Positions 47,015-54,975 of a stretch of DNA of 64,000 bases are shown here, in pieces (position 1 is the stretch's first letter; each line of letters opens with the position of its first letter). The stretch lies in NCBI GenBank assembly GCA_035635555.1, contig DASQAT010000046.1, forward strand, positions 62,001 to 126,000, read 5' to 3'. The notes under the pieces are model-generated. The model searched no databases, was not told the origin of the DNA, and saw only the letters and a program-made list of their open reading frames with translations. The translations under genes and the position numbers were made by a program. Source of the stretch: Candidatus Dormiibacterota bacterium (GTDB taxonomy: Bacteria; Acidobacteriota; Polarisedimenticolia; Gp22-AA2).

Positions 47015-47192
47015 TCACCAGGCCGAGCCCGTACGTTTCGCGGCGCCGCCTGCTGCGTCGCTCTGATGAGAGGCGCGGCTCAGGGCCCTGGCCGACACGG
47101 TCATTCCGCTCCTGGCGTCGTGGGGGCTGTCGTCCGGTCCCGGTCCGCCGCGCCACAACGGCCGAAACATGCTGCCTTTTCCAGGCGGTTGC

Positions 47193-47198
47193 TATAAT
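47193..47198 (+). promoter_or_regulatory. -10 element for the acyltransferase-lpxB operon
   Basis: A consensus TATAAT in the 272-base divergent gap, 48 bases before the TTG start at 47247. The -35 region is not recognisable. The rest of this gap shows no gene. Confidence 0.45.
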
Positions 47199-47246
47199 GC
47201 CCGCCCAAGCGGCGACGCGTTCACGGACGACCGCAAGGGGGCGCCT

Positions 47247-47953
47247 TTGAGGGACCGGTTCTCACTCTGGCTGGGCCCGATCCTCGCCAGCGGGTTGATA
47301 CGAACGATGCGCCACCTTCTTCGCTTGACCCGCGTCGGCGAGAACGTGGTTCTCGACCTGCACCAGTCAGGCCGTCCCTACGTGCACGCCTTCTACCACG
47401 ACCAGCTTCTCATGATGACCTACTCCTACCTGGGGCAGCCGCACGGGCGGAGGCTTGTGGTCCTGAGCAGCCGCCACCGGGATGGAGAGTACGTGTCGCG
47501 CACCTTGGAGAGGTTCGGGCACCAGATGGTGCGCGGGTCCACGGGGCGCGGCGCGGTGGCCGGCCTGAAGGAGATGATCCGCCATCTGCGGGACGGCCGG
47601 GACGTCGCCTTCGCGACCGACGGCCCGCGCGGCCCGCGCCACCAGGTGCAGATGGGCGCGATCGAGGCCGCCCGACTGGGACGCGCCCCGCTGGTCCCGG
47701 TTGTCTTCGCCGCATCTAAAAAAAAACTCTCCGATCCTGGGACGCCTTCCAGATCCCGCTGCCATTCGCCAGGGCCATCATCGTCTACGGTGACGCAGTC
47801 GAGGTTCCGTTCGAAGCAGACCGCCACGTCATGGAGTTGAAGCGACTCGCCCTCCAGGGAGCACTCGATCGTCTGACCGAAGAGGCGGAGACACTGGCCC
47901 GCGGCGATCGCAAAGCATCGGCCTCGGGGTCGCGTGCCGTGGACACGCGATGA
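47247..47953 (+). CDS. DUF374 lysophospholipid acyltransferase, frame interrupted at an A9 tract
   Basis: A predicted membrane-associated acyltransferase of the DUF374 group, which lies beside lipid A genes in many bacteria. TTG 47247 has AAGGGGG upstream. Motifs are FYHDQLLMM, GRDVAFATDGPRGPRHQVQMGAI and LVPVVFAASKK. At codons 158-160 the frame enters nine A residues (47718-47726). The zero frame then gives an unconserved tail ending at 47840 (197 residues). The -1 frame gives TLRSWDAFQIPLPFARAI plus VYGDAVEVP, exactly the family C-terminus, and ends at 47953 in an ATGA overlap with lpxB. The full product, about 235 residues, therefore requires slippage, or the tract is a sequencing error. 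Confidence 0.8.
47718..47726 (+). other. A9 slippery tract in the acyltransferase gene
   Basis: Nine adenines read TCT AAA AAA AAA CTC in the upstream frame. The phasing A-AAA-AAA suits -1 ribosomal slippage, and the length suits RNA polymerase slippage adding one A. The sequence TAAAAAAAAACTC is identical to that in coaBC at 53363-53375. Confidence 0.7.
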
Positions 47954-49209
47954 GCGTAGGCGGTGTCGCGCGCGTCCTGATCGTCGCGGGGGAAGCTTCG
48001 GGCGATCTCTACGGCAGCCTGGTGATGCGCGCGATGGCCGAGCCTTTGCATCCCCCCGGCGGCCGGATCGGCGCGTCGTCCGGAGCCGAGACGCCCAGTC
48101 CTGGTGTCCGGTTCACCGGCATCGGCGGGCCGGCCATGCGCGCCGCCGGTCTCGCGCCTCTGGGCGACGCCGGGACGTTGGGGGTCACCGGCTTTCTCGA
48201 GGTCCTCGGGAGCGCGCGCGCCATCTGGCGCGCCTACCGCGAGGCCCGGGCCCTCCTGTCTTCGGCGGAGCGACCCGACCTGGTGCTGCTGATCGATTAT
48301 CCCGACTTCAACCTGCGCCTGGCGACGCATGCCAGGAATGCCCGGGTGCCGATCCTCTATTTCGTCAGCCCGCAAGTCTGGGCCTGGCGCAAGGGTCGGG
48401 TGAAGCAGATCGCCAGGACGGTCGATCGGATGCTGGTGATCCTGCCGTTCGAAGAGGAGATCTACCGGCAGGCGGGTGTTCCGGTGGAGTTCGTCGGACA
48501 CCCTCTCCTGGATCTCGTCCATCCGGTGCTCACCCGGGATCAGGCGCTACGTCCCCTGGGTCTCGATCCGGGGCGGCCGACCGTGGCGTTGCTCCCCGGG
48601 AGCCGCCGGAACGAGCTTCGCGCCCACCTGGGGATCATGCGGGCCGCGGCGCTGCGTTTGCGCGAGGAGTTCCGCGACCTGCAGGTCCTTCTGCCCGTCG
48701 CGCCGACTCTCGCGACGGGCGACGTGGAGCAGATCCTGCGCGCGGGGCGCAGGCGAGGCCCAGGGGCCGGCGCCGGGGGGGCCGACTTCGAGTGCGTCCT
48801 CGTGCGCGAGGGTCGCTACGATGCCTTGGCGGCTTGTGATGCCGCGATAGTGGCCTCCGGAACGGCGACGGTGGAGACCGCCCTCCTGGGGGTCCCGATG
48901 GTGATCGTCTACAGGATGAACGCGCTCACCTTCGCCCTCGCCCGCCTCATCTCCGACGTGCCGCACGTCGGGATGCCGAATCTGATCGCCGGCGAGAGGA
49001 TCGCCCCCGAGCTGGTGCAGAACGAGTGCACGCCGGAGCGCATCGCCGTCGAGCTGCGGCGCCTCCTGACCGATCCGCCCGCGGCGGAGACGATGCGCCG
49101 GGCCTTGTCCGGCGTGCGCTCGCGACTAGGCCGGCCGGGCGCCATCGCGAGGGTCGCGGCGGCCGCTTGGGATATGATCGGCGCGCGCGGCCGCAAGCAC
49201 GCGGCCTGA
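47950..49209 (+). CDS. lpxB: Lipid-A-disaccharide synthase
   Basis: A 419-residue GT19 enzyme. It has VLIVAGEASGDLYGSLVMRAM, FTGIGGPAMRAAG, LIDYPDFNLRLA, YFVSPQVWAWRKGRVKQIA, FVGHPLLDLV, LLPGSRRNELRAHL and ASGTATVETALLGVPMVIVYR. It condenses UDP-diacylglucosamine with lipid X to form lipid A disaccharide at the inner membrane. The ATG overlaps the end of the shifted frame of the acyltransferase gene, which implies co-translation. An insert of about 20 residues near residue 35 (proline-rich) is unusual. Confidence 0.96.
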   Translation: MSVGGVARVLIVAGEASGDLYGSLVMRAMAEPLHPPGGRIGASSGAETPSPGVRFTGIGGPAMRAAGLAPLGDAGTLGVTGFLEVLGSARAIWRAYREARALLSSAERPDLVLLIDYPDFNLRLATHARNARVPILYFVSPQVWAWRKGRVKQIARTVDRMLVILPFEEEIYRQAGVPVEFVGHPLLDLVHPVLTRDQALRPLGLDPGRPTVALLPGSRRNELRAHLGIMRAAALRLREEFRDLQVLLPVAPTLATGDVEQILRAGRRRGPGAGAGGADFECVLVREGRYDALAACDAAIVASGTATVETALLGVPMVIVYRMNALTFALARLISDVPHVGMPNLIAGERIAPELVQNECTPERIAVELRRLLTDPPAAETMRRALSGVRSRLGRPGAIARVAAAAWDMIGARGRKHAA

Positions 49210-49243
49210 GCCGTCACGAGGACAGACGAGGAACGAGGACGGG

Positions 49244-50155
49244 ATGAGGAGGGAGGGCCATCTCGGGCAGGTCATGAGCATGACCGGGTTCGGCCAGGGA
49301 GTGGTCGAGCGCGACGGCGTACGGGTCCAGGTTGAGCTGAAGGGGGTCAACCACCGGTTCCTGGACGTCAAGATGAGGCTGCCGGGCGAGGTCGGTCTGC
49401 TGGAGCCCGCGCTGCGCACCGTGATCCAGGAGCGGGTGTCGCGTGCGCGCATCGACATCGCCGTGGTGATCGTCTCATCGCGCCCCGCGTCCTCGCAGGT
49501 CGTGATCAATCGGGGCCTCGTGTCCGAATACTTGCGCGCGGTCGACACCCTCAAGACGGAGTTCAGCCTGACGGGGGCAGTCGGTGTGGAGTCGATCCTG
49601 AGTCTGCCGGGGGTGGTTGTGTTCCAGGCGGAGGCGGCGCAGGCTGATGGTGTCGCCGCGGCCCTCCTCACCGAGGCTTTGTGTCGGGCGCTCGACGTGT
49701 ACGACACGATGCGCGCTTCGGAGGGGAGGCGCCTGGCGGATGATCTCAAGGTCCGCCTGCAGGATATCCGCGCCGCGGGGCGCCGCATCGCGGAGGAGGC
49801 CCGTGGACTCCCGGAGACGTACGCGCGCCGGCTCAAGGAGCGCGTCGCAACGCTCCTGAGCGGCGAGCGGGCGCTTGACGAGTCCCGGCTAGCGCAGGAG
49901 GTGGCCCTTCTGGCGAGCCGAGCGGACATCACCGAAGAGCTGGTCCGGCTTCAGGGTTACCTGGACCAGGCGGAGGAGACGCTGTCCCGGCCGCAAGGGT
50001 CGATCGGCAAGACACTCGATTTCATCATGCAGGAAATGAACCGGGAGGCGAACACGATCTCCTCGAAGTCAGAGACGCTGCCAATCTGCCAGGGGGCGCT
50101 CTTGATCAAGGCCGAGGTAGAGAAGATCCGCGAGCAGGCGCAGAACCTCGAATGA
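49244..50155 (+). CDS. yicC: YicC/YloC-family endoribonuclease
   Basis: A 303-residue protein. SMTGFGQG at the start, VELKGVNHRFLDVKMRLP, and the C-terminal DITEELVRLQGYLDQ and IGKTLDFIMQEMNREANTISSKS are the two conserved blocks of the family, whose members cleave RNA. The gene precedes gmk, as in many bacteria. ATG 49244 has GAGGAC upstream; ATG 49274 would start at the conserved SMTGFG and is an alternative. Confidence 0.92.
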   Translation: MRREGHLGQVMSMTGFGQGVVERDGVRVQVELKGVNHRFLDVKMRLPGEVGLLEPALRTVIQERVSRARIDIAVVIVSSRPASSQVVINRGLVSEYLRAVDTLKTEFSLTGAVGVESILSLPGVVVFQAEAAQADGVAAALLTEALCRALDVYDTMRASEGRRLADDLKVRLQDIRAAGRRIAEEARGLPETYARRLKERVATLLSGERALDESRLAQEVALLASRADITEELVRLQGYLDQAEETLSRPQGSIGKTLDFIMQEMNREANTISSKSETLPICQGALLIKAEVEKIREQAQNLE

Positions 50156-50189
50156 GCGCGGGCGCGTGCGACGGAGAAAGGAGGGGCGC

Positions 50190-50852
50190 GTGACCCGGGC
50201 CGCCGGCGGAAGGGCCGCCGACCGGGATCGTGATCCGCAAGGATCGGTCCTGGTAATCTCCGCCCCCTCCGGCGCGGGCAAGACCACGCTCTGCAAGCGC
50301 CTCCTGGAGGAGGACCGGAAGGTTGATTTCTCCGTGTCGTTCACCACACGCCCGCCACGCGCCGGGGAGAGGGATGGCGCGGATTACTTCTTCGTGGATC
50401 GAGAGGAGTTCGAGCGCCGGCGCGATCGGGGGGAGTTCGTCGAATGGGCCGTGGTCGGAGGGCATCTCTACGGCACGTCGGTGGAGGGGGTGAAGGAGGC
50501 GGCGGCGCGCGGCCGCGACATCCTCCTCGACATCGATACGCAGGGGGCCGTGAACATCCGCCGCCTGATCCCCGAGGCGGTGCTCATCTTCATTCTTCCC
50601 CCCGGCAGGGCGGCGCTCAAGGAGCGGCTCACCAAGCGCGGCACAGACGGGCCCGAGGAGATGGCCCGCCGGCTGCGGCTGGCGCGGGGCGAGGTGGAGA
50701 GGAGTCCGACCTACGACTACGTCATCATCAACGACGATTTCGAGGTCGCCTACCGTCAGCTGCGAGCAGTCGTGGAGGCGGCGCGCTGCCGGACCGATAG
50801 GCAGAAGGCGCGCCTGGAAGCAATTCTGCGCGAGTTCACCGATCATTGCTAG
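50190..50852 (+). CDS. gmk: Guanylate kinase
   Basis: A 220-residue enzyme phosphorylating GMP to GDP. The P-loop APSGAGKTTLCKRLL, TTRPPRAGERDGADYFFV, GEFVEWAVVGGHLYGTS and LLDIDTQGAVNIR are all present. GTG 50190 was chosen because AAAGGAGGGG lies six bases before it; an upstream GTG at 50166 has no such site. The first 25 residues are unconserved. Confidence 0.95.
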   Translation: MTRAAGGRAADRDRDPQGSVLVISAPSGAGKTTLCKRLLEEDRKVDFSVSFTTRPPRAGERDGADYFFVDREEFERRRDRGEFVEWAVVGGHLYGTSVEGVKEAAARGRDILLDIDTQGAVNIRRLIPEAVLIFILPPGRAALKERLTKRGTDGPEEMARRLRLARGEVERSPTYDYVIINDDFEVAYRQLRAVVEAARCRTDRQKARLEAILREFTDHC

Positions 50853-50910
50853 AAACCTGACCGAAAAACGGAGCGGGCAAGAATCGTCCAGTGCGGATGA
50901 TCGGTTGACG

Positions 50911-52290
50911 ATGAGCGAGACTCCTGAATCCAGACGAAACAGTGTTCTCTCGCCTCCGCGCGGAACCGCCCGCAGGAGCGTCTTGTGGGTCGTGTTCGGT
51001 GTCGCTCTTCTCGCGCGTCTTTCGGTGTTCTCGGTCAATTCTTTGAGGGGCGAGCCTTTCTTCCAGCTGCCGGATTCCCACAGTTACATCGAAACCGCGA
51101 GGAGTCTCCTGGAGCACGGTGCCATTCAAGATGATGCGGGGAAGCCGGCCGAGGGGCGCGTCCCGGGCTACCCCCTGGTGCTGGCTCTCATTTTTGCGAC
51201 AGGCATCGCCTCACCTCTTCGGGTGACGGGTGCGGTCCTCGTGCAGTGTCTCCTGGGGGCATGGGTCGTTGTTCTCGCCGCGCGATCGTCCCGGGCGCTG
51301 CCAGGATACCTCGGCGTTCTTCCTGTCGGGCTTCTTCTGGCGATGGAACCCTCAGCCATGGCCTACTCGAATGTGATTCTGTCGGAGATGCTGTACTCCC
51401 TGGTCCTTCTTCTGGCGCTCCAGGCCTGGGAACGTTATCTGAGACTTCAGGATACCGGTACCCTGCTGTGGCTGGGTGCGGTTCTGGGGGTCTTGCCTCT
51501 GGTTCGCCCGATCGGTCAGTTCTTTCCGCTGGCAGTCCTGCCGGTTCTCGTGTGGGCGCGGTGGGGCAGGGCGGGGATGGTCCGCGGAATCGGTATTTTC
51601 ATGCTGGTTGCATTGTCGCCGGCCATCGCCTGGTCTTTGCGCAACTACATTGAACTGGGATTCTATGAACTGCACTCGACCGGCCCATGGGCCCAGGCCA
51701 TATTCGCCCAGGACGTGGAGAGCCACAGCAGTCGGAACGACCCGTCTCCGACCGACAGCTACATCAAACCATGGGAGCCCGGTTTCGGCACGGACCAGGG
51801 CCTCACATCGCGGGAAGCCTCCGTTCAGCGCACGGCGTACTTCCGCACGACCCTCGCCGCCCATCCAGGTGTGGCTGCCCGACAGTGGCTGACCAACTGC
51901 ATCTTCCTGATGGGTGTGCCGGACTCCATGCTGGCCGCGATCCTTCTGGAGCACCCGCCGAAAATCCCGGAGGGCAGTGTGCGTGGCCGGATCGGGTGGC
52001 TCGGCGAGCTGGGGCTGCTGGCTGTGCCGGTGGCCCTGGGCATGATGATTTCCCTCGGGGGGATGGCAGCCATCCCCTGGCTCCTGGCGCGCTGGGGACG
52101 GTGGACTCCTCATATGCAAAAAGTCATGTGTTTCGTCGTGATCGCGGTCCTGTATCACTGCGCAATCTCTTCGTTCGTGGGTCATCAGGGCGAGCGCTAT
52201 CGCGTCCCCATCATACCTTTCCTGGCCCTTCTGCTCAGCTCGGGCGTGGGGCACCTTATTCGAGGAACGGAGTCAACCTCGGGAGGGTGA
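50911..52290 (+). CDS. Multi-pass GT39-like glycosyltransferase
   Basis: A 459-residue membrane protein with ten or more helices. The first periplasmic loop has LPDSHSYIETARSLLEHG, where GT-C enzymes of the ArnT/PMT type carry catalytic acidic residues, followed by GRVPGYPLVLALI. A long loop holds DPSPTDSYIKPWEPGFG. It probably transfers a sugar from a polyprenyl carrier in the periplasm. It sits between gmk and rpoZ, which are usually adjacent. ATG 50911 is preferred; TTG 50905 is in frame just upstream. Confidence 0.72.
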   Translation: MSETPESRRNSVLSPPRGTARRSVLWVVFGVALLARLSVFSVNSLRGEPFFQLPDSHSYIETARSLLEHGAIQDDAGKPAEGRVPGYPLVLALIFATGIASPLRVTGAVLVQCLLGAWVVVLAARSSRALPGYLGVLPVGLLLAMEPSAMAYSNVILSEMLYSLVLLLALQAWERYLRLQDTGTLLWLGAVLGVLPLVRPIGQFFPLAVLPVLVWARWGRAGMVRGIGIFMLVALSPAIAWSLRNYIELGFYELHSTGPWAQAIFAQDVESHSSRNDPSPTDSYIKPWEPGFGTDQGLTSREASVQRTAYFRTTLAAHPGVAARQWLTNCIFLMGVPDSMLAAILLEHPPKIPEGSVRGRIGWLGELGLLAVPVALGMMISLGGMAAIPWLLARWGRWTPHMQKVMCFVVIAVLYHCAISSFVGHQGERYRVPIIPFLALLLSSGVGHLIRGTESTSGG

Positions 52291-52471
52291 TGGTCCACCC
52301 GACAGAACCTCACCCCGCGCGGGCAGCATGACATCTCATGACTCTTCCTGGAGCGTCTCCCCCGGCGGAATCGCCGGCCGGGGCCCGGACGGCCTTCTTC
52401 TCGATCCAGCAGCCCCTTTTCGTCTAGAATAAGGCCTGGAACGCCCTTCACTTCCGGTTCATGGAGGTTCG

Positions 52472-52744
52472 ATGATTCCCACCGAGAACATCGGCAACAA
52501 GTTCGAGTTCATCTCCGTAGCGGGCGAACGCTGCAAGCAGCTGCAGCGGGGGGCCCGTGCGCGGGTGGAGACGATGGCGCACAAGCCCGTGACCATCGCG
52601 ATGCAGGAAGTGATCGCCGGCGCGATTCCTTACAGCTACGGTCCCTTCCCCGAGGAGTACCCGGTCGAGGAGGTCGCCGAAGTGACGACGGAGACGTACC
52701 CCGCCGACGGCGCCGGTCTGGAGAACCGTGAGCCGGGAAGCTGA
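52472..52744 (+). CDS. rpoZ: RNA polymerase omega subunit
   Basis: A 90-residue protein with NKFEFISVAGERCKQLQRGARARV followed by KPVTIAMQEVIAGAIPY, corresponding to the conserved N-terminal helices of omega. GGAGG lies four bases before the ATG. It lies between gmk and coaBC, the typical neighbours of rpoZ. TAGAAT at 52425-52430 is a possible -10 element. Its end overlaps the coaBC start by 17 bases. Confidence 0.88.
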   Translation: MIPTENIGNKFEFISVAGERCKQLQRGARARVETMAHKPVTIAMQEVIAGAIPYSYGPFPEEYPVEEVAEVTTETYPADGAGLENREPGS

Positions 52745-54121
52745 CGGTCGGAAGCGACGGTCGGCCGGCGGGGTCGTGACGGACGGCAGGCGCCCGGACC
52801 TCTCCGAGGATCGTGGTGCGGAGGCGGGGCGCGCCGATCTGCGCATCGCCCTCGGCGTGAGCGGAGGAATCGCGGCGTACAAGGCGGCCGAGGTGGTGCG
52901 GGGGCTGGTGAAGGCCGGCGCGGAAGTGCACGTGATCATGACCCCGGGGGGGCAGCGGTTCATCACGCCGCTCACCCTGCAGACGCTCAGCGGGCAGCCG
53001 GTGATCACGGGTCAATGGGACCTGTCGCGGGGCGCCGACGTGCAGCACATCACCCTGGCGCGCGGACTCGACCTGTTCCTGGTCGCCCCCGCGACCGCCG
53101 ACATTCTGGCCAAGCTGGCGCACGGCATCGCCGACGATTTCCTGAGCACCTTCTATCTGGCGGTGACGGCGCCGGTCGCGGTGGCGCCCGCCATGAACGT
53201 GTGGATGTGGGAGCACCCCGCCACGCAGGCCAACCTCGCCCTCCTGAAGACGCGCGGCGTGCGCGTCATCGAGCCTGGGATCGGGGACCTGGCGTGCGGC
53301 GACGAGGGGGTGGGCCGCATGGCGGAGCCCGATGTCATCGTCGACGCCGCGCTGGCGGTCGTTAAAAAAAAACTCCGCGGTCGCTTGAAGGCCGCCGCGT
53401 CCTCGTGACGGCGGGGCCGACGCGCGAGGCGCTCGACCCGGCCCGATTCCTCAGCAACCCTTCCACCGGAAAGATGGGGTACGCCCTCGCGTCCGAGGCG
53501 CTGGCGCGCGGCGCCGAGGTCACCCTGATCTCGGGCCCGACGATGCTCGCTCCGCCCGCGGGAGCCAGCCTCGTCCGGGTGATCACGGCGGACGAGATGT
53601 TCCGCGCCGCCCTCAACCAGGCCCCCGGCGTCGACCTCGTCCTCAAGGCGGCGGCGGTCGCCGACTACCGTCCCGAGGAGCGCTCCCGCGGCAAGATCAA
53701 GAAGGAGTCGCTGCGTCGCAAGGCACTCAAGGGGCGCGGCGCCGATCGCGCCATCCTTCTGCGCCTCATGCCCACTCCCGACATCCTGGAGGAGCTTGGA
53801 CGGCGCAAGAAGCCGGGGCAGGTCCTGGTCGGATTCGCGGCGGAGACCGGCGACCTCGAGTCGAATTCGCTGAAGAAGCTCCGGAAGAAGAACCTCGATC
53901 TGGTCGTCGCCAACCGCATCGGCAGGGAGGGGGAGGGATTCGAAGCGGACACGAACCGCGCCCTGGCGATCGATGCAGGAGGACGCAGGACCGAGTTGCC
54001 CCTGATGTCCAAGGAGGCGATGGCGTCGAGGATTCTCGACCTGGCGGAGCGGTTGCTGCGTGAAGGGGATGCGGGGCGGCCCCGCCGTCGCCCGGCGGAC
54101 GCCCGGCCGGAGGCGCCCTGA
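52728..54121 (+). CDS. coaBC: Bifunctional CoaBC, frame interrupted at an A9 tract
   Basis: This protein makes 4'-phosphopantetheine from phosphopantothenate and cysteine. The CoaC half (residues 40-212) has [14 protein letters not shown], the catalytic His in [17 protein letters not shown] and [13 protein letters not shown]. At codons 213-215 an A9 tract (53364-53372) ends the zero frame soon after, at 53408 (226 residues). The -1 frame continues as [19 protein letters not shown] into a complete CoaB half with AAAVADYRP and the Lys motif GKIKKE, ending at 54121; the full product is about 464 residues. GTG 53405 could start a separate CoaB, but would lose its first beta strand. Confidence 0.9.
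53364..53372 (+). other. A9 slippery tract between coaC and coaB
   Basis: The zero frame reads GTT AAA AAA AAA CTC. A gain of one A in the mRNA, or a -1 ribosomal shift, joins the CoaC and CoaB frames. Three consecutive AAA codons are striking, because Lys is almost always AAG in the surrounding genes. Confidence 0.75.
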
Positions 54122-54975
54122 TGCAGGCACACGACGACCTTGGGACTCTGCGGGCGCGGCTCGAGTGGCTGCGTCTCCTGGGCGTGGAGGATCTGCCGGT
54201 CCCCCGGGCGGCGAGCCGGTCGGTCGCGTCCGAGCCGCCGGCCGCCGCCCGCTCCGGGGCGGCCCCGGAGGATCGCCGCAGGGGCGCGCAGGCCGGCCTG
54301 TTCGGGGGGGTGGAGGATGTCGACGTCCCCGCGCCATCCGCTGCGGGGGGGCGCGGTCGTGGAGCCGAACGAGCGACTTCGCCGCTCGCCGCTGCGCGGG
54401 CGCCCGAGGCGCCGGACTCGGAAACGGCGCTGCGAATCGTCCGGGACGATCTCGGCGAGTGCACCCGCTGCGGGCTGCACCGCAACCGCACCAACATCGT
54501 GTTCGGCGTTGGCGATCCGAAGGCGCGTCTGTTTTTCGTCGGCGAAGGTCCGGGGGCCGATGAGGATCTGAGAGGGGAGCCGTTCGTCGGGCGGGCCGGC
54601 CAGCTCCTCACCCGGATCATCGAGTCGATGGGAATGGAGCGAAAGGACGTCTACATCGCCAACGTGGTGAAATGCCGGCCACCGGAGAACCGCACGCCGC
54701 TGCCCGACGAGATCGCCACCTGTTCACCCTTCCTGTTCCAGCAGATCATGGCGATCCGACCGCGCGTGGTCGTCTGCCTCGGAACGCCCGCTGCGCAGAC
54801 GGTCCTGGGCACGCGGGACACCATCACGCGGCTCCGCGGGACGTTCCATCATATCGGCGGCATCCGCGTCATGCCGACCTTCCACCCGGCCTACCTTCTG
54901 CGTAATCCCTCCGCCAAGAGGGAGGTCTGGGACGACATGAAGAAGGTCATGGCCGAGCTGAAGACACCGGAATGA
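54121..54975 (+). CDS. Type 4 uracil-DNA glycosylase (4Fe-4S)
   Basis: A 284-residue DNA repair enzyme that removes uracil. [16 protein letters not shown] near residue 117 supplies two cluster cysteines, with others in VKCRPP and the following TCSPF. Motif A is [23 protein letters not shown] and motif B is HPAYLLRNP. Residues 25-100 are a low-complexity Ala/Gly/Arg linker. The ATG shares a base with the coaBC stop (TGATG), and the end overlaps priA by four bases. Confidence 0.92.

Follow-up and report, generated by a model that had tools for sequence, protein, structure and literature searches.

Two genes in a 64,000-nucleotide stretch of a Candidatus Dormiibacterota genome (contig DASQAT010000046.1, positions 62,001 to 126,000; hereafter the window) are each broken in frame at a run of nine adenines (A9): lpxJ, for a late lipid A acyltransferase, and coaBC, for a protein with CoaC and CoaB domains. 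In related genomes, frame breaks in these genes also stand at runs of nine to eleven adenines, with both the interruption and its direction conserved from species to species. Comparison of the sequences makes it almost certain that recoding of some kind operates at both genes, and RNA-polymerase slippage is probably the main mechanism. The kind of recoding is known; lpxJ and coaBC appear to be new to it.

Both runs are preceded directly by T and followed directly by CTC (T-A9-CTC, 47717–47729 and 53363–53375 on the forward strand) and are read in the zero frame as AAA AAA AAA CTC. Downstream of the run, the zero frame of each gene departs from the sequence of its family, which is restored by the −1 frame (one nucleotide added, or two removed). 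Coordinates, frames and family matches confirm the sequence-only reading that both genes break at the same 13 bases, in the same codon phase and with the same correction. Its remark that no other A or T run in the window exceeds six is also accurate, other homopolymers reaching at most six for A/T and seven for C/G. The two runs are the only homopolymers of 8–11 bases and the only A9 tracts in the window, against 0.01 A9 tracts expected from shuffles. Because lysine in eight neighboring genes is mostly encoded by AAG (58 codons, versus 7 AAA), three consecutive AAA codons are unexpected here.

Six A9 runs occur in the 4.28-Mb, guanine-plus-cytosine (GC)-rich genome. The sequence-only reading had held that A9 runs with random frame effects genome-wide would count against it; each of the four runs outside lpxJ and coaBC is flanked by a strong hairpin (−16 to −27 kcal/mol), placed as would suit a terminator of the opposite strand, and these runs appear terminator-like. 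One of the four (L005:1501–1509, G000:C41) also falls at the very end of an open frame whose composition resembles coding sequence, within its final codons (FFRQKKTTGP, stop). Nine further runs of eight adenines are present in the genome, some within open frames. The 13-mer TAAAAAAAAACTC itself has exactly two copies in the genome and its reversed control none. It was considered as a signal and rejected: relatives share the run while its flanks vary. The shared 13-mer is therefore judged a coincidence, with the A-run as the conserved element, and the weight that had been placed on the common sequence context falls away.

By its domain match and conserved residues, the first gene is identified as lpxJ (DUF374), encoding a late (3′ secondary) lipid A acyltransferase, with a start codon at either TTG 47247 or ATG 47169. 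Passages of PMC6148475 assign all LpxJ homologs to DUF374, propose H61 and D132 as the catalytic pair of Rickettsia typhi LpxJ, and describe W172 and D173 as likewise essential. With correspondence drawn by motif, the window protein belongs to the same family (PF04028) and keeps these residues as H51, D125, W164 and D165, all invariant across 11 aligned sequences; unlike the R. typhi gene, it has a frame break at an A-run just before W-D. Since W164–D165 is encoded just 3′ of the run, the unslipped product would lack it. The −1 frame after the run reads SWDAFQIPLPF, at which the family sequence resumes; searched alone, the 3′ part gave no Pfam match. The read-through protein has a coherent predicted structure (mean predicted local distance difference test score, pLDDT, 83.3; predicted template-modeling score, pTM, 0.82), in which the run falls between strands 149–156 and 175–180, and Foldseek matches it to PatA and to the lipid A acyltransferase LpxM with TM-scores of about 0.5.

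The second gene is assigned as coaBC from its CoaC and CoaB domains, which occur in order. The separate halves score 212.2 and 212.8 bits against TIGR00521, each just below the cut-off of 219.7, and the model positions they cover (Table 1) place the run in the linker between the domains. Stop/start overlap junctions are common inside operons. The shifted frames of both genes end in such overlaps with the next gene, which argues that they are the real ones. The four-nucleotide overlap was found in all seven same-class lpxJ loci inspected and in none of the three inspected from the set of Nitrospira relatives described below. Of 116 shifted lpxJ frames that could be measured, 82 stop no more than 10 nucleotides from an ATG or GTG, and the other 34 have no such codon that close.

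Table 1. Coordinates of lpxJ, coaBC and neighboring genes in the window
Feature	Positions	Strand	Evidence or remark
lpxJ 5′ part (DUF374), zero frame	47247..47717	+	PF04028, E 1.5e-26; invariant H and DGPRGP residues 5′ of run
lpxJ A9 slippery run	47718..47726	+	Relatives have A9–A11 with −1 need at same place
lpxJ 3′ part, −1 frame	47727..47953	+	W-D at 47738–47743; stop overlaps lpxB start by 4 nucleotides (ATGA)
lpxJ zero-frame tail, predicted end of unslipped product	47727..47840	+	Open reading frame 47169–47840; without W-D
CoaC part of coaBC, zero frame (start codon uncertain)	52728..53363	+	PF02441; TIGR00521 positions 5–181
coaBC A9 slippery run, interdomain linker	53364..53372	+	A9 also in six judgeable family members and G045
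CoaB part of coaBC, −1 frame	53373..54121	+	PF04127, E 3.2e-66; TIGR00521 positions 183–389; stop overlaps next ATG (TGATG)
Zero-frame tail after CoaC	53373..53408	+	Short tail, then stop
lpxB, lipid-A-disaccharide synthase	47950..49209	+	TIGR00215, E 8.6e-85; start overlaps shifted lpxJ end
YicC/YloC-family endoribonuclease	49244..50155	+	TIGR00255
gmk, guanylate kinase	50166..50852	+	TIGR03263
rpoZ, RNA polymerase omega	52472..52744	+	TIGR00690, 28.2 bits (cut-off 23.6)
Family 4 uracil-DNA glycosylase, next after coaBC	54121..54975	+	TIGR00758

The sequence-only reading had proposed conservation of the runs among relatives as a check, and three sets of genomes bear it out for lpxJ. The own-phylum set comprises 100 genomes, 86 with PF04028; of 90 match rows 88 were examined (second matches in G048 and G056 are omitted) and 82 classified. 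Runs of 9–11 adenines occur in 16 of these 82, every one in the −1 state, and the remaining 66, three of them with A7, are all in frame (Fisher 2.4e-17, relatedness ignored). Six loci fall outside the classification (L117, L194, L198, L204, L228 and L229), and for three of them (L194, L198 and L204) the reading is in frame and run-free. The Nitrospira set holds 116 relatives of one Nitrospira genome, 113 with lpxJ; G136, G181 and G184 were left out and 110 loci taken. Here A9 or A10 with a −1 offset was found in 104 of 110, including all nine loci on contigs of 2.4–4.8 Mb, and four loci without a run are all in frame. A further locus, L303, contains an N and shows a frame that fails to fit. 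The Delta set comprises 59 relatives of one 'Deltaproteobacteria' genome, 53 with lpxJ, from which the best 30 of 53 were taken and 29 classified, L393 lying at a contig end. The run with a −1 offset is present in 21 of 29; the others are in frame, with A10/A11 in four, A8 in one and no run in three. Types of lpxJ that encode the long product directly and types that would reach it by slipping thus seem to coexist in one Delta clade.

Across the three sets, 141 of 147 lpxJ runs of at least nine adenines are in the −1 state (binomial p 6e-59 against 1/3, relatedness ignored), and no lpxJ gene off by −1 lacks one (141 of 141). Families differ in the codon phase of the run (TCT AAA AAA AAA or TCA AAA AAA AAC), and the −1 requirement is kept in both. 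A global scan of one genome per species, limited to lpxJ of the GPRGP type with at least nine adenines and TGGGA downstream, gave 68 loci, a lower bound: 54 are at −1, 13 in frame and one in the third frame. Nine of the 13 in-frame loci have a locus GC of up to 0.41, and three of those at −1 (L124, L126 and L160) belong to genes carrying GPKGP, the GPRGP motif having matched one base off the coding frame. A separate motif search, with matches in 131 of 296 genomes, many of them fortuitous, misses GPKGP genes and is not used as a denominator. One Nitrospira-set locus (L276, the same as L142, in G212) has A10 in the third frame; its near-identical sister L285 is in the usual frame.

For coaBC, 98 genomes matched and 83 were classified, G002 being a fragment and the others not taken in. 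The gene is in frame without a run in 75 of 83. A9 with a −1 offset occurs in G045 and in the six genomes of the window's family that could be judged, with the run between the CoaC and CoaB domains in all; G003 was judged locally as −1, since a second break interrupts its CoaC part. When 396 genomes of the phylum were scanned for the pattern, the coaBC run turned up in those six family members only, a lower bound given that the pattern misses G045. PF04127 matches once in each of G000, G001, G003, G004, G005 and G007, so that no spare CoaB domain is in sight in these six genomes. Three coaBC loci deserve mention in their own right. The second break in G003 (L085) is probably an assembly deletion. 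In G045 (L225, family f17), A9 and the −1 offset occupy the linker in a distant family, apparently independently of the window's family. In G071 (L226), the CoaC and CoaB parts lie in different frames at TTTAAAAAAAT with another kind of offset, which may represent separate genes or another recoding.

We infer that slippage yields two products from each gene, the short LpxJ being inactive and the mixture serving as a set point. During transcription the nascent A-run would slip against the template T-run, and a share of the mRNAs would gain one extra A, or its equivalent modulo 3. Only slipped mRNA would yield full-length LpxJ with W-D, or full-length CoaBC; unslipped lpxJ mRNA would give an LpxJ without W-D, expected to be inactive, and unslipped coaBC mRNA a short-tailed CoaC domain. 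Full-length product would then probably be held at a fixed, reduced fraction. As to the role, by analogy we would guess that slippage fixes the level of late lipid A acylation and leaves a surplus of CoaC relative to CoaB. The bias toward one frame in 141 of 147 runs supports the proposal of the sequence-only reading that slippage serves as a decoding strategy in this lineage, and −1 ribosomal frameshifting would give the same products.

In programmed −1 ribosomal frameshifting, two lysine tRNAs would shift backwards by a single base at A AAA AAA or A AAA AAG and leave the mRNA unchanged. The heptamer A AAA AAA is found in both codon phases, GTC follows the run in 22 of 122 lpxJ loci (in the phase TCA AAA AAA AAG this gives A AAA AAG), and excerpts of PMC3711429 note such sites in Escherichia coli dnaX. 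Against this, all 141 lpxJ genes at −1 have at least nine adenines, though seven would suffice; lysine in the window's neighboring genes is mostly AAG; and the run is retained in relatives with in-frame A10/A11. Shine–Dalgarno-like tetramers at −20 to −4 of the run are absent from all 122 loci, a weak test given six of 122 in a control window. Downstream folding appears weak, with mean z of −0.57 (+1 to +60) and −0.84 (+6 to +46) against 0.03 in the control, over 50 of 102 distinct sequences. Slippage by RNA polymerase requires nothing beyond the run. Run lengths of 9–11, the two codon phases, the lack of upstream tetramers, the apparently weak downstream folding and the fit of the in-frame A10/A11 relatives lead us to prefer RNA-polymerase slippage and to regard ribosomal frameshifting as unlikely.

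Several observations weigh against programmed slippage. Folding of the 60 nucleotides upstream of the lpxJ run is slightly stronger than in shuffled sequences (mean z −1.02, n=50), and the heptamers A AAA AAA and A AAA AAG/AAC at the runs would permit ribosomal −1 slippage. Four Delta genomes (loci L405, L408, L413 and L416, among the best 30 of 53) encode A10/A11 at the lpxJ site in frame, which means that the −1 offset can be dispensed with; these would fit slippage, since the run gives a mixture whatever frame is encoded, with the encoded frame setting the ratio. A9 is not rare in the Delta genomes G103 and G104 (38 and 37 overlapping matches). The third-frame A10 of L276 is counted on the same side, though it is possibly an assembly error. 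Finally, an independent-pairs test with forks left unresolved reaches p 0.0625 only.

That test was made on an LpxJ tree of 155 rows, which requires at least 10 changes of run state and at least 14 of frame. The number of gains and losses is uncertain, because the alignment has 122 columns only and 72 of 152 inner branches are drawn open. Two −1 sequences of the own-phylum family f34, L044 (G079, A11) and L190 (G067, A10), are nested among the Nitrospira rows by a long branch, which suggests transfer of the gene together with its slip site. Locus L325, in frame and run-free, stands beside its sister L345, which has A9 and −1.

A frameshift tolerated without any selected role, and rescued by chance slippage, seems very unlikely. 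Slippage at A9 would indeed rescue the genes without selection for it, as with the tolerated frameshifts reported from AT-rich endosymbionts, but the window genome is GC-rich, with its six A9 runs in 4.28 Mb, and run and offset are retained together across lineages. The own-phylum and Nitrospira lpxJ sets showed no near relatives in which the frame at the run varied at random.

Phase variation, in which a hypermutable tract would switch lpxJ on and off, has in its favor that lpxJ shapes the cell surface and that poly-A tracts are a known type of switch. A passage of PMC3711429 also names poly-A tract phase variation. This explanation is nevertheless highly improbable, since 141 of 147 runs share one of three frame states rather than showing a mixture, and coaBC, with one PF04127 match per genome, has the same −1 bias. 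The role of coaBC is essential.

About equally improbable is that the halves are made as separate proteins through internal initiation. Some bacteria do make CoaC and CoaB separately (NCBIfam coaC_strep and coaB_strep), and shifted-frame GTG or TTG codons lie within 60 nucleotides upstream in 17 of 122 lpxJ loci. The other 105 have no start there, however, and ATG is found in none of the 122; the first start in the window's shifted coaB frame, GTG 53405, falls within the conserved VLVTAGPT; and a fragment of an acyltransferase fold would be unlikely to function alone.

That the breaks are an assembly or base-calling artefact, as under the suggestion that a consensus caller systematically shortens A10 to A9, can in practice be dismissed: A-runs are error-prone and the named global-scan records are mostly metagenome assemblies, yet the same off-by-one recurs at 141 loci of three sets in separately assembled genomes and two codon phases, A10 and A11 are called too and are mostly off by one as well, and nine Nitrospira-set loci sit on the 2.4–4.8-Mb contigs mentioned above.

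Turning to known systems, excerpts of PMC1088944 and PMC5009743 describe slippage-dependent expression chiefly in mobile elements, secretion genes, dnaX and viruses, and the former gives nine bases as the run length at which a large proportion of genomes show clear selection against the run. In Thermus thermophilus dnaX, as excerpted in PMC1088944, an A9 within a coding gene likewise gives two protein lengths from one gene, with the short product at 50%. There the long product is in the encoded frame, whereas in lpxJ and coaBC, which are other genes, it would require the slip. Slippage in dnaX sets the gamma/tau ratio, to which the proposed set point would be analogous. Shigella mxiE resembles lpxJ and coaBC in that its longer product requires slippage (PMC1088944, in part), although its run consists of Us. 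In spa13, according to passages of PMC5009743, slippage also affects the next gene, which the lpxJ–lpxB overlap would permit. The Shigella genes serve secretion, unlike lpxJ and coaBC, which are housekeeping genes for envelope and cofactor with runs kept across lineages.

The GeneTack clusters (dnaX with two open reading frames, magnesium chelatase and DUF111) share conserved −1 transitions at A-rich runs, and magnesium chelatase cassettes showed 63% frameshifting with 11 As, 40% with 9 and 10% with 7 (excerpts of PMC3711429); the main text of that paper does not mention lysophospholipid, DUF374 or coaBC. The terms 'acyltransferase' and 'phosphopantothen' are likewise absent from the part of the slippage review PMC5009743 consulted. 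A full-text search of the open literature, supplements outside its scope and matches judged in part by title, returned no report of slippage or frameshifting in lpxJ, DUF374 or coaBC, and slippage literature touching Nitrospira or Acidobacteria, judged from titles and passages, does not cover these genes.

Nitrospira relatives are central to nitrification. If slippage is the mechanism, it would govern an outer-membrane enzyme in the 105 of 110 Nitrospira-relative loci with at least nine adenines and an out-of-frame lpxJ, and a cofactor enzyme in one acidobacterial family. The lpxJ and coaBC sites could serve as natural experiments on the strength of selection for slippage. Genes of this kind are likely to be divided or cut short by gene callers, so that lipid A pathway annotation in these phyla may be wrong. 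A broader proposal is more tentative, and we consider it doubtful: that in nearly all examined Nitrospira relatives, parts of Acidobacteria and parts of a 'Deltaproteobacteria' lineage, slippage on a kept A-run sets the degree of late lipid A acylation, and that it also sets the CoaC:CoaB ratio in one acidobacterial family; nucleotide pools, temperature or the state of the polymerase might tune it. In that case the lpxJ runs would be among the most widely conserved slippage sites known in non-mobile bacterial genes.

The genes between 47247 and 57506 run on one strand in the order lpxJ, lpxB, yicC, gmk, an open reading frame without an NCBIfam match, rpoZ, coaBC, udg and priA; rpoZ, a gene for an RNA polymerase subunit, thus sits between the two slippage candidates. 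Elsewhere in the class, the DNA polymerase III gamma/tau gene dnaX of G012 (L019:1501–1509) contains an in-frame A9, preceded by T and followed by CTC, 3′ of its conserved N-terminal part. This is the Thermus arrangement, so dnaX may be a third gene of the class to use slippage.

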